From the NCBI RefSeq assembly GCF_021026315.1, contig NZ_JAJNCX010000013.1, positions 1 through 64,000 of the forward strand: a DNA stretch of 64,000 nt, written 5' to 3'. Shown one piece after another: positions 4,841 through 62,400 of the stretch. The stretch comes from Rhizobium sp. C4 (lineage in GTDB: Bacteria > Pseudomonadota > Alphaproteobacteria > Rhizobiales > Rhizobiaceae). The notes under the pieces are model-generated. The model was not told where the DNA came from. It ran no database searches and worked only from the letters and a program-made list of their open reading frames with translations. The translations under genes and the position numbers were made by a program. Numbering within the stretch: the stretch's first letter is position 1; each line of letters begins with the position of its first letter.

Positions 4841-5061
4841 CCCCGGAGCTGACCCGCACCTCTCCTCAAGGTGCCGGCCCGCACGGAAGCCGCCTCTATA
4901 TCACCCGTCATGAAGATCGCAACAAAAAATAGCGCGTTTCACACGCGTATCGCTGCCTCCCCTCCCTATATCTAAGGGGTCGGGACCTCGGGGCCTTTAG
5001 GACAGTTTTAAGAGAGGCGCGTTATCGTCACCCAAGATGATAGACAAAAGCCATGCGAATG
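4841..5061. other. intergenic stretch between tRNA-Leu and the NfeR1-like RNA
   Basis: No coding frame is credible here. It should hold the tRNA-Leu promoter (minus strand). A weak stem-loop lies around 4977-5001 (CTAAGG with CCTTTAG). Nothing else is recognised. Confidence 0.5.
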
Positions 5062-5118
5062 ATGCATGCCACGTATGTTTATTTCGCACTGCACAAAACG
5101 GAATGAACGATCTATATT
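5062..5118 (+). promoter_or_regulatory. promoter module of the NfeR1-like RNA
   Basis: Contains ATGCAT at 5062-5067, then exactly 18 bases, GCACTGCACA at 5086-5095, then exactly 17 bases, and TATATT at 5113-5118. The last six bases of the middle box (TGCACA) and TATATT have normal sigma-70 spacing. The same three boxes with the same two spacings recur before the second DUF1127 gene (6006-6062). From the literature I recall that nfeR1 promoters of alphaproteobacteria carry a conserved motif; that this is the same motif is inference. Predicted transcription start near 5125. Confidence 0.6.
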
Positions 5119-5124
5119 CAGATC

Positions 5125-5292
5125 ATCAGGACGGCGCAGTGAACTGCAGAACGATCTGAAACGCGAAATTGGAATTCGAGACTGCCTACTCCTCCTCCCA
5201 GGGCGTCTCGTTTATGACTGACAACACTCCTCCTCCCAGTTGTCAGTCGCTTATATGACGCCCGCCGCACCTCCTCCCGCGGCGGGCGTTAT
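5125..5292 (+). ncRNA. nfeR1: NfeR1/alpha-r14-type small RNA with three anti-Shine-Dalgarno hairpins
   Basis: Three consecutive perfect or near-perfect stem-loops each expose CCTCCTCCC in the loop. Hairpin 1 is 5177-5210 (loop motif 5191-5199); hairpin 2 is 5216-5248 with a perfect 10-bp stem (motif 5229-5237); hairpin 3 is 5258-5289 with a perfect 11-bp stem (motif 5270-5278), followed by TATAATTT and probably acting as terminator. The stems differ completely in sequence while the loops are identical, which is strong evidence for selection on RNA. Three identical unpaired anti-SD motifs are the hallmark described for Sinorhizobium meliloti NfeR1, a salt- and symbiosis-related translational repressor. 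The 5' end is uncertain: 5117-5160 contains a further inverted repeat (TTCAGATC with GATCTGAA) overlapping the -10 box, so the RNA may start later, near 5165-5175. Confidence 0.85.
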
Positions 5293-5649
5293 AATTTCCG
5301 GACCCCACTTCCCCAATTCTTCCCGTTGACGCGAAAAGCCGGCCATACAATCACTGGCCAGAACGGAACGTACATTCCGTTGGCCGACTTCCGGTTCGCA
5401 CACGCACGCGCAGAAGACGCTTTCATCGGCAAGGTGACGCCCAGCGCACAGCCATTCGGCGAGCAGGCGGAAAACTGCACCCGCCGAAAATTCCTTAACA
5501 AATTCTTATCCTTGCGCGACGCCATGCATCTGACGCATGGGTGATCTGCCGGATTTGCGCTTTATCATTGCTGCGCCGCAACATATAACGGTGATCAGAG
5601 ATGAAGAGGCAGCCAAACGTGTTGCCAAACCTGAAAGAAGGATAAGGCC
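5293..5649. other. leader/intergenic region between the small RNA and the first DUF1127 gene
   Basis: No convincing ORF; two 70-80-codon frames on opposite strands overlap each other and have no ribosome binding site. It contains a bulged hairpin at 5356-5385 (GGCC..AACGGAA with TTCCGTTGGCC), a copy of ATGCAT at 5524-5529, and TATAAC at 5584-5589 as a possible -10 box for the DUF1127 gene at 5650. Confidence 0.45.
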
Positions 5650-5793
5650 ATGAACATTGCTCGCTCTTTTGCTAACTGGCGCAAGTATCGTCAGACCGTT
5701 GTCGAACTCGACCGTATGTCGAACCGCGAACTGACCGACCTCGGCATCGCCCGTTCGGAAATCCAGCGCGTCGCCCGCGCCGCCGTCCGCTAA
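5650..5793 (+). CDS. DUF1127 small arginine-rich protein (first copy)
   Basis: A 47-aa protein beginning MNIARSFANWRKYRQT and containing LDRMSNRELTDLGIARSEI, the core L..LS..EL.DIG..R..I pattern of DUF1127 (YjiS-like) proteins. It is rich in Arg (about 1 in 6). The ATG has AAGGA 7 bases upstream and a strong terminator follows. Such proteins are implicated in RNA-related stress and nutrient regulation in Rhodobacter and Agrobacterium, but no molecular role can be read from this sequence. It lies 360 bp downstream of the NfeR1-like RNA and about 360 bp upstream of a second copy of identical length. Confidence 0.9.
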   Translation: MNIARSFANWRKYRQTVVELDRMSNRELTDLGIARSEIQRVARAAVR

Positions 5794-5816
5794 TCGGCAC
5801 AAACACTTTCCCCTAG

Positions 5817-5850
5817 AAAAGCCCCGCCGGCTCAGCCCGCGGGGCTTTTT
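5817..5850 (+). terminator. rho-independent terminator after the first DUF1127 gene
   Basis: Stem AAAAGCCCCGC with GCGGGGCTTTTT, loop of about 11 bases, ending in a T-run and lying 24 bases past the stop codon. Confidence 0.9.
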
Positions 5851-6005
5851 GTTGCCCATAGTCTTGCCACGACCTCGCCCAACTCTTTAACATTCTGTTA
5901 AAATTGGCATTTTAGATTCATAGCGACGCGCAATGGCTCAGAAGCGACATGCATCGCTGCCTATTTTCGCACCAGCGATTGCGACTTGAGCAAGCAATTG
6001 CACAA
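5851..6005. other. intergenic region before the second DUF1127 gene
   Basis: No ORF. Contains a small inverted repeat TTAAC-ATTCT-GTTAA near 5887-5901 and one ATGCAT at 5949-5954. The promoter module of the next gene begins with a second ATGCAT at 6006. Confidence 0.4.
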
Positions 6006-6062
6006 ATGCATAGCAGACGCTGAAATTCCGCACTGCACATTGCCGCTGCGATGCACTATATG
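6006..6062 (+). promoter_or_regulatory. promoter module of the second DUF1127 gene, matching that of the small RNA
   Basis: ATGCAT 6006-6011, 18 bases, GCACTGCACA 6030-6039, 17 bases, TATATG 6057-6062. Box sequences and both spacer lengths are identical to the module at 5062-5118, while the spacer sequences differ apart from a short AT..TC match before the middle box. This indicates the two transcripts answer to the same regulator. Confidence 0.6.
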
Positions 6063-6151: not shown

Positions 6152-6295
6152 ATGAACCCGATCCGTCTTGCCAAGAACTGGCTGTCCTACCGCCGCACGC
6201 TGTCCGAACTGAGCAACCTGCCCTCGCACACGCTCAGCGACATCGGCCTGACGCGTTATGACATCCGTATGGTTGCTGCCCGCCAGGCACGCTGA
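6152..6295 (+). CDS. DUF1127 small protein (second copy)
   Basis: A 47-aa protein with LSYRRTLSELSNLPSHTLSD followed by IGLTRYDIRMVAARQAR, the DUF1127 core. Same length as the copy at 5650 but clearly diverged. The ATG at 6152 is chosen because GAGGAAAC precedes it; the frame stays open to 6086 but the upstream residues are not family-like. A leader of about 85 nt is expected from the promoter at 6006-6062. Stands alone as a monocistronic unit ending in a hairpin. Confidence 0.9.
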   Translation: MNPIRLAKNWLSYRRTLSELSNLPSHTLSDIGLTRYDIRMVAARQAR

Positions 6296-55659: not shown

Positions 55660-56605
<946 letters not shown>

Positions 56606-56647
56606 AGCGGCAAGCGGAAGACAAGCCGGTGTGGCGGGGGACAAGCG

Positions 56648-56685
56648 TTCACCGCCATCGGGCGTGAGGCCCTGACGGCGGTGAA
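56648..56685 (-). terminator. hairpin downstream of the third DUF1127 gene
   Basis: Perfect 9-bp stem TTCACCGCC with GGCGGTGAA, with an inner GGGC/GCCC pairing in the loop. It lies 23 bases past the DUF1127 stop and ahead of the riboswitch on the same strand. No T-run, so termination is uncertain. Confidence 0.5.
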
Positions 56686-56707
56686 TGGCGTCGAACCAGC
56701 CCACGCT

Positions 56708-56938
56708 TCAGAAGAGATCGACCTTCCGGCATTCGCGCTCCGCCTCGTGGCGGCTGATACCGATATCGGAGAGCTGGTCGTCGGTCAGTTCCGAAAGGGC
56801 CACCCGCGAGCGATTGAGCGTGATGGCCCAGCGGAGTGCGGCAAAGACTTTCGCGACGCGTGCGCCGATTGTCATCGTCGTGACCGGCGCCCGTTCGAGC
56901 GATACACTTTCCATCATTGTCTCCATCGTTTCCATCAT
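56708..56938 (-). CDS. DUF1127 small protein (third copy)
   Basis: A 76-aa protein whose C-terminal part, LSELTDDQLSDIGISRHEAE, is the DUF1127 core, preceded by AALRWAITLNRSRVA. The N-terminus is unusual: MMETMETMMESV results from near-repeats of ATGATGGAAACG. ATG 56938 (AAGGG upstream), GTG 56944 and ATG 56914 (GGAG upstream) are all possible; translation may initiate at more than one. It is divergent from a MocR-type regulator and upstream of the B12 riboswitch. Confidence 0.82.
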   Translation of the reverse strand: MMETMETMMESVSLERAPVTTMTIGARVAKVFAALRWAITLNRSRVALSELTDDQLSDIGISRHEAERECRKVDLF

Positions 56939-61433: not shown

Positions 61434-61644
61434 TGTGATGTCCTTTCGTGGAGCAACCGTTCAAGACGATGACGCAACCATAAACGGTTCCGTTGTTCAG
61501 TAATACCGGCACGATAGAAACGCAGTGTTCACAAGAAGGCGATGAAATTTCACCCGCCGGTCACATACCGCATTGCAAAATGTCCTTGCAATGCGAGGCC
61601 GGGAACTCCATTTTCGGCATCCACCGCACGCCCGGAGACCGACC

Positions 61645-62400
61645 TTGAACAAGCACAAAATCGTCACTGCCGCCATGCTCGCCATTGGCGACGAACTGCT
61701 CTCCGGCCGCACCAAGGACAAGAATATCGGTTATCTGGCCGAAAACCTGACGGTTGCAGGCATTGACCTGAAGGAAGTGCGCATCGTCGCCGACGATCAG
61801 GACGCGATTGTCGAGGCCGTCAATGCGCTTCGGGCGAAATACGATCTCGTTTTCACCTCCGGCGGCATCGGCCCGACGCATGATGATATCACGGCGGATG
61901 CCATGTCCGCCGCCTTCGGCCTGCCCTGCCTGCACGATCCGGATGCGATGCGCCTGCTCGGCGAGATGTATGAGCGCCGCGGCCTCGAGTTCAACGAGGC
62001 CCGCCAGCGCATGGCGCGCATGCCGCAGGGCGCCCGCCATATCGAAAACGCCGTCTCCACCGCGCCGGGCTTCATCGTCGAGAATGTTCATGTGATGGCC
62101 GGCGTCCCTGCCGTGTTCCAGGCCATGCTCGGCTGGCTTCTGCCGCATCTGCCGACGGGAGCAACCGTGATGAGCCGCACGGTCGTCTCGCCCTTCGGCG
62201 AAGGCGAGATCGGCAAGCCGCTGACGGAGGTCCAGAAGAACCATCCGGAAACCTCGATCGGCTCCTACCCGAAATTTGATGGCAAGGGCTTCTATACGGA
62301 AATCGTCGTCAGGGCCCGCGACGAGGCCGTGCTGCAGTCTGCCGTTTCGGCGGTCGAAGCCATGCTGGATGCCATCAGCGCCACGCGCGAAACGGCCTGA
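61645..62400 (+). CDS. CinA-like molybdopterin-binding domain protein
   Basis: A 251-aa protein equal to the N-terminal MoaB/Mog-like half of CinA, without the amidohydrolase (PncC) half. AMLAIGDELLSGRTKDKN, FTSGGIGPTHDDITADAM and MAGVPAVFQAML are the family signature. The start is TTG 61645 with GGAG 7 bases ahead; the frame is open to 61573. Such proteins may act in nucleotide repair (ADP-ribose pyrophosphatase in CinA) rather than competence or molybdopterin synthesis. Confidence 0.88.
   Translation: MNKHKIVTAAMLAIGDELLSGRTKDKNIGYLAENLTVAGIDLKEVRIVADDQDAIVEAVNALRAKYDLVFTSGGIGPTHDDITADAMSAAFGLPCLHDPDAMRLLGEMYERRGLEFNEARQRMARMPQGARHIENAVSTAPGFIVENVHVMAGVPAVFQAMLGWLLPHLPTGATVMSRTVVSPFGEGEIGKPLTEVQKNHPETSIGSYPKFDGKGFYTEIVVRARDEAVLQSAVSAVEAMLDAISATRETA

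Follow-up and report, generated by a model that had tools for sequence, protein, structure and literature searches.

The NfeR1 promoter of S. meliloti drives an RNA of the ar14 family from a sigma70 core and carries an LsrB element about 70 nt upstream of the transcription start. According to the accessible text of the study describing it, LsrB activates this promoter via a TGCA-N6-GCAT site, as supported by EMSA and reporter data, and NtrC acts as a repressor (PMC10746234). PHB is not among the reported inputs of NfeR1, which are LsrB and NtrC, and the word is absent from the main text of that paper in the available version. Genes for small DUF1127 proteins are also known to be activated by LsrB, or VtlR, from a box of the form GCAT-N3-TG-N3-T. 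As stated in the accessible parts of the respective papers, VtlR controls three DUF1127 proteins in B. melitensis (PMC12595884), and Agrobacterium atu1667, termed a small hypothetical protein and orthologous to BAB1_0914 and BAB2_0512, is under LsrB/VtlR control (PMC7486931, also the source of the VtlR box). The regulon of PhaR (AniA) in S. meliloti includes phaP1, phaP2, phaZ, mmgR, and SMc02051; its operator consensus, as available from PMC12542648, is YGCRNYGCR with AT arms, and the phaP1 site TTATTGTGCACTGCACAAATT includes GCACTGCACA. In the accessible portion of that paper, ar14 RNA is not listed in Table 3, and NfeR1 and DUF1127 are absent from the main text. The AniA-repressed and NtrC-activated sRNA mmgR, a member of a different RNA family than ar14, likewise has a promoter with a PhaR operator in its core. 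Rhodobacter provides a further parallel in ccaF1-CcsR, an RpoH-driven co-transcript in which a DUF1127 gene lies beside RNAs with the anti-SD motif CCUCCUCCC.

The window, i.e., the whole 64-kb stretch of DNA analyzed here, contains a comparable arrangement in the order trigger factor, tRNA, ar14 RNA (5171–5294), two DUF1127 genes (5650–5793 and 6152–6295), and a GidA-family gene. The ar14/NfeR1-family sRNA, encoded on the plus strand, reached 112.9 bits with Rfam RF02344 (gathering score 58.8) and harbors three CTCCTCCC anti-SD motifs. Both DUF1127 genes are also located on the plus strand and encode small, arginine-rich proteins of 47 aa, matching Pfam PF06568 with 55.7 and 49 bits, respectively (cut-off 23.3). 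As in ccaF1-CcsR, DUF1127 genes are found beside an anti-SD RNA, but here they possess separate promoters of the LsrB/PhaR type. A third DUF1127 match (31.7 bits) is located on the minus strand at 56414–56827, just upstream of a cobalamin riboswitch.

An earlier note on this DNA had described a three-box module, ATGCAT-N18-GCACTGCACA-N17-TATAT, at 5062 and 6006. Boxes and spacer lengths proved to be exact, with ATGCAT at 5062–5067 and 6006–6011, GCACTGCACA at 5086–5095 and 6030–6039, and TATATT at 5113–5118 or TATATG at 6057–6062, all on the plus strand. The spacers have indeed diverged, as the note had claimed, with identities between the copies of just 6/18 and 5/17, and the four ATGCAT reported for this region (5062, 5524, 5949, and 6006) were all recovered. 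Nine occurrences in the 64-kb window compared to about 8.2 expected make the ATGCAT count ordinary, and only the clustering is notable. Likewise, GCACTGCACA alone is not enriched, because with up to one mismatch it was found only at these two places of the window compared to 3.9 expected by chance. The note had proposed to ask whether the pattern occurs equally often at random positions; the composite with up to three mismatches was found twice in the window and not once in 100 window shuffles. Across the 5.2-Mb genome, furthermore, the pattern GCACTGCACAN{15,19}TATAT has two matches, each of them in this region, and its backwards control has none. TATAT is the −10 of the module: sigma70-like core promoters of the form CTGCAC-N17-CTATAT, compared to a published consensus of CTTGAC-N17-CTATAT, are present on the plus strand for ar14 (5089–5117) and for the second DUF1127 gene (6033–6061). 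Transcription is predicted to start near 5124 and 6068; for ar14, about 47 nt separate the start expected from the TATAT box and the 5′ end of the RNA further downstream. This 47-nt leader (5124–5170) contains a short inverted repeat (TCAGATC...GATCTGA); judged by anti-SD positions, the leader length varies among species, up to about 200 nt.

The upstream part of all three promoters resembles the published LsrB/VtlR sites. For ar14, the plus-strand element ATGC-N7-GCAT-N7-ATGT (5053–5078) includes ATGCAT and agrees with the abcR promoter element as well as with TGCA-N6-GCAT, the published site of LsrB. The first DUF1127 gene is preceded by ATGC-N7-GCAT-N7-CTGC (5524–5549, plus strand) with an exact VtlR box at 5535–5547, and the second by a T-N11-A site with ATGCAT (5997–6011, plus strand), which is weaker than the other two elements and contains an exact VtlR box on the minus strand (5997–6009). 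Such motifs (T-N11-A, TGCA-N6-GCAT, or GCAT-N3-TG-N3-T) are located about 50–72 nt upstream of the inferred starts; they are short, and LsrB boxes alone are near chance in the 64-kb window. Aligned promoters share ATGC-N7-GCAT-N7-ATGC in their upstream part, which includes the LsrB site TGCA-N6-GCAT and, in its right part, the VtlR box GCAT-N3-TG-N3-T. ATGCAT is half of the published LsrB/VtlR site. The genome of the window encodes lsrB itself (G000:C47:1885–2787), 87% identical to the query taken from locus L270. The one unnamed activator of the earlier note was not supported: ATGCAT belongs to the site of a named regulator, and GCACTGCACA would most likely serve another regulator as its operator. 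Nor is the extension to DUF1127 genes unreported, as the note had assumed, since LsrB/VtlR control of such genes is described in the accessible texts of PMC12595884 and PMC7486931. The idea that the anti-SD RNA is co-regulated with a DUF1127 gene was supported and extends to the DUF1127 gene in between (5650–5793), which has both elements in another geometry. It was therefore right in kind, but the activator has a name, because LsrB/VtlR control of NfeR1 and of genes for DUF1127 proteins has been published.

For the middle box, we built a PhaR matrix from 17 S. meliloti sites of promoters tabled as efficiently bound (Table 3 in the accessible part of PMC12542648), excluding weakly bound or unevaluated promoters and three of the four sites tabled for exoH. 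The highest score among 63,980 positions of the window (20.9 bits) was obtained for the operator-like 21-mer TTATTTCGCACTGCACAAAAC (5079–5099), which lies over the ar14 −35 and spans GCACTGCACA; it was also the best window match of model R1. The second rank was held by CATTGCTGCGCCGCAACATAT (5566–5586; 18.9 bits) over the apparent −10 of the first DUF1127 gene, which reaches 21.7 bits in two relatives of the genus. The promoter of the second DUF1127 gene showed two sites with modest scores, AAATTCCGCACTGCACATTGC over its −35 (6023–6043; rank 4, 12.1 bits; identical in two relatives) and TGCCGCTGCGATGCACTATAT over its −10 (6041–6061; rank 5, 11.5 bits; 17.7 and 16.4 bits in two relatives). All four sites are on the plus strand. 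Hence, four of the five top sites of the window fall into this 1 kb and are distributed over all three promoters (binomial p ~3e-7); the same four places came out on top of the window in a profile search from the same 17 sites, and the relatives G117 and G014 keep all of them. The third-best site of the window is located at 61563–61583 (13.45 bits), at the start of the ORF 61573–62400. When compared by eye to the operator WNWD2NYGCRNYGCRNH2WNW, the sites at 5079 and 6023 agreed at 20/21 positions each. By its fit to these operators, GCACTGCACA, which overlaps the −35, is most likely a binding site for the repressor PhaR as the second regulator.

The genome of the window encodes PhaR (PF07879 at G000:C2:176019), as well as a phasin and a PHB depolymerase. 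A genome-wide scan with the PhaR model, in which 150 of 1167 first-look candidates were scored and four downstream proteins were tested against Pfam, revealed 16 distinct places (E ≤ 10). Some of these sites are located upstream of ppdK and of genes for a phasin, a PHB depolymerase, and an AMP-binding enzyme, which resembles the published regulon; others belong to two further ar14 promoters and one abcR promoter. The window's own sites (10.4 bits in the profile search) are not part of that list, and, with 150 of 1167 candidates scored, ranks within it do not represent a full census. At G000:C2:176019–177368 (L068), a second copy of ar14 has phaR and a DUF1127 gene as neighbors on one strand; phaR and ar14 are equally close in the two other genomes of the genus examined, in one of which (G014) a DUF1127 gene is also present. 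RF00519 loci, which we read as mmgR-like, provided a positive control, with 26 of 30 scoring at least 12 bits with the PhaR matrix. RF00519 was rejected as a route to abcR, as its loci are mainly mmgR-like promoters, and abcR was retrieved by RF02345 instead.

Conservation of the composite was analyzed in two genome collections. Among 199 family genomes, 39 contain the pattern GCACTGCACAN{16,18}TATAT (44 matches), and none contains the backwards pattern. A scan of named genomes yielded at least 120 core matches; of the 120 listed, 46 are in Hyphomicrobiales as assigned by record titles. The targets were defined as ar14-type if two or more CTCCTCCC motifs occurred within 330 nt, and as DUF1127 by a home-made five-sequence profile within 200 nt (weak: E 1e-6 to 1e-4). 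Among the matches listed, 35 of the 46 in Hyphomicrobiales precede an ar14-type RNA (15) or a DUF1127 gene (20; 12 strong and 8 weak), compared to 0 of 74 elsewhere. This wider search, which the earlier note had suggested, indicates that the composite is specific, with chance core matches existing elsewhere. Six further Hyphomicrobiales matches among those listed, from Mesorhizobium and Aminobacter (L130, L178, L185, L204, L211, and L214), precede a shorter DUF1127-like protein, MGF[FY]TE[ML]F[AS]RPRP...ADIG[VI]KPADFPRIARE. Three of these proteins were tested and reached 17 to 21.9 bits (cut-off 23.3); they probably form an unrecognized DUF1127 branch. The remaining listed matches comprise L117 and L159, which have the upstream element but no frame resolved, and L153, L174, and L212, which lack both target and upstream element. 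A Robiginitomaculum MAG contig (L148, 2761–2792) carries the core together with an upstream ATGC-type element (tatgcaaacttgcatagcag), representing either a mis-binned contig or a case outside Hyphomicrobiales.

PhaR (PF07879) is encoded in 105 of 121 family genomes, and the site follows its distribution. We compared 90 ar14 units from 70 PhaR-positive genomes (30 best-per-genome loci, 40 more genomes, and 20 further copies, selected from a longer list of matches) to PhaR-negative units, for which 28 of 34 matches were used; four had no locus, and L325 and L326 were omitted as weak. G031 was removed from the PhaR-negative group after its score was known, because its mmgR has an operator (L058) and a phasin-like frame is present at L323, so that the PhaR gap is probably due to the assembly. 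A best upstream site of at least 12 bits was found in 74 of 90 PhaR-positive units compared to 2 of 25 PhaR-negative units (Fisher p ~9e-12, which overstates the case, since an LsrB tree indicates about three phaR losses, seven of the nine PhaR-negative rows form one clade, and G044, itself one loss, keeps a 16.6-bit site). The tree does not contain G006, whose start motif was not found by the frame search. With G031 included, the PhaR-negative count is 4/28, two of these being the same promoter, and the counts per genome are 60/70 and 3/12, respectively. The PhaR-negative genome G110 (68% complete) showed a high PhaR-site score too. Sites of at least 12 bits occurred in 0.7% of shuffles, and 16 of the 90 PhaR-positive units have no such site. 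A close LsrB match was present in all 30 genomes tested, including 10 of the 11 PhaR-negative genomes counted, where the match was 57 to 71% identical (the tested set did not contain G110 and G031). The LsrB template matched at a median of 9 of 12 positions in PhaR-negative units compared to 11 in PhaR-positive ones, and at 10 or more positions in 12/25 compared to 76/90 units, so part of the contrast may reflect general promoter divergence. A GCAT-N7-ATGCA or GGCAGCTATGCA-like core, a pattern set post hoc, is kept in 18 of 25 PhaR-negative units.

The published S. meliloti data connect PhaR to this gene neighborhood. SMc02051 has been described as a PhaR-repressed 'small hypothetical protein' that is strongly raised without PhaR, and was not recognized as DUF1127; published proteomics gives log2 increases of 1.51 (low P) and 4.63 (TY) for phbC phaR compared to phbC. 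Its site is tabled, as unevaluated, in the accessible part of the PhaR study (PMC12542648). In S. meliloti 4H41, S. medicae, and others, we found the published 21-mer with 0 mismatches before a DUF1127 gene that has two copies of ar14 beside it. SMc02051 is thus a DUF1127 gene beside ar14 RNAs, flanking an intergenic region with NfeR1 (SmrC14) and a second predicted copy, sm7'. The first ar14 copy of strain 4H41, taken by coordinates as sm7', carries the full module; its counterpart in S. meliloti 1021 is predicted only. The second copy, taken as NfeR1 by published coordinates, carries the LsrB element, whereas a PhaR-like site is absent (best score 4.5 bits), and a PhaR box in the NfeR1 promoter was rejected for this copy. 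PhaR control would therefore be copy-specific, and the ar14 promoter of the window, with its PhaR-like box over the −35, resembles that of sm7' and differs from that of NfeR1. SMc03998 was rejected as a second DUF1127 target, since the 2-mismatch locus in 4H41 encodes an 86-aa protein that is ArsR-like by eye. As side evidence, which is mixed, H2O2 induces phaP1 and one DUF1127 gene in S. meliloti, and tetracycline raised only the phaP1 promoter fusion (PMC12218461, accessible text).

Taken together, we read the module as a sigma70 promoter with two regulators, to which we assign a probability of about 0.7: LsrB as the activator and PhaR as a repressor that would exclude RNA polymerase and be relieved by PHB. 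An alternative, which we consider unlikely, needs LsrB alone and takes GCACTGCACA as the second (activation) site of a LysR tetramer, with half-sites ATGC, GCAT, ATGC, and GCAC about 11 bp apart, of which GCAC would coincide with the −35. In its favor, GCAC keeps to the 11-bp spacing of the half-sites in this architecture, and sites close to the −35 are common among LysR-type regulators. However, the place of GCACTGCACA fits the PhaR matrix better than any other in the window, and most PhaR-negative promoters lack the box although LsrB is present. The S. meliloti copy taken as NfeR1, whose promoter is bound and activated by LsrB, also lacks it. Among the abcR promoters scored (the best 15 of 30 fetched), all 15 keep the LsrB element, at one fixed place, yet nine have no box; a PhaR-like site is located somewhere upstream in the other six. 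Strong sites (22.5 to 23 bits) overlapping the LsrB element were seen at the abcR promoter G000:C12:541615–541632 (L282) and at L271 and L276. Finally, the box occurs in three registers. In the 68 PhaR-positive units with both elements, its start relative to the LsrB element was −10 in 26, +26 in 22, +12 in 16, and another value in 4. These three registers place it on the first half-site of LsrB, on the −35, and on the third half-site, respectively. Three discrete registers are expected of an independent protein and not of a fixed second LsrB site, and such a variable position would suit the operator of a repressor, for which obstruction is enough; since the registers −10 and +12 overlap LsrB half-sites, part of the match there could be a by-product of TGC repeats.

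We regard it as very improbable that GCACTGCACA simply extends the −35 of a shared sigma factor in an unusual way, with co-regulation being incidental. CTGCAC-N17-CTATAT does align with the published CTTGAC-N17-CTATAT, but other ar14 promoters have the same box displaced against the LsrB element by 14 or 36 bp, and conservation extends over both halves of the palindrome. A recent duplication of a promoter shared by the ar14 and DUF1127 units is hardly credible. The two promoters do lie 1 kb apart on the same strand, but the spacer identity of only 6/18 and 5/17 and the separate retention of each version before its own gene in other species speak against it.

Under the two-regulator reading, the redox-responsive LysR-type activator LsrB (VtlR) would bind the upstream element (T-N11-A, ATGC-N7-GCAT, with ATGCAT as the right half) and recruit RNA polymerase to a core promoter whose −35 is poor. 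PhaR (AniA), a repressor titrated away by PHB granules, would bind the palindrome around GCACTGCACA (YGCRNYGCR with AT-rich arms). As this palindrome lies over the −35, PhaR would block polymerase and probably hinder LsrB. Production of the silencing RNA and the DUF1127 proteins would consequently be expected with LsrB active and PhaR withdrawn by PHB. We infer the predicted PhaR binding at ar14 and the window promoters, the competition with LsrB, and the physiological logic from motif matches.

That LsrB controls NfeR1 as well as DUF1127 genes was known before, and the window resembles the VtlR/LsrB-activated DUF1127 genes of B. melitensis and Agrobacterium (atu1667) in having small DUF1127 genes behind a GCAT-N3-TG-N3-T box. 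It differs from them by a PhaR-like box over the −35 or −10, which follows the same operator scheme as the S. meliloti PhaR regulon. New, as judged on open-licence papers and partial texts, is the combination of LsrB and PhaR on ar14/DUF1127 promoters. The PhaR reading would name the second half of a conserved promoter for multi-copy silencing RNAs and for DUF1127 proteins, whose role is largely unknown. SMc02051, an 'unknown' S. meliloti protein with strong PhaR dependence, gains an identity as DUF1127. Beyond this locus, we lean slightly towards PhaR acting throughout Rhizobiaceae and relatives as a gate on post-transcriptional control, by which PHB granules, in removing PhaR, would free LsrB-driven anti-SD RNAs (ar14, some abcR, and the known case of mmgR) together with DUF1127. 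If this is true, PhaR operators would have been placed repeatedly over LsrB half-sites, the −35, or the −10, and translation silencing would be tied to both carbon storage and redox state.
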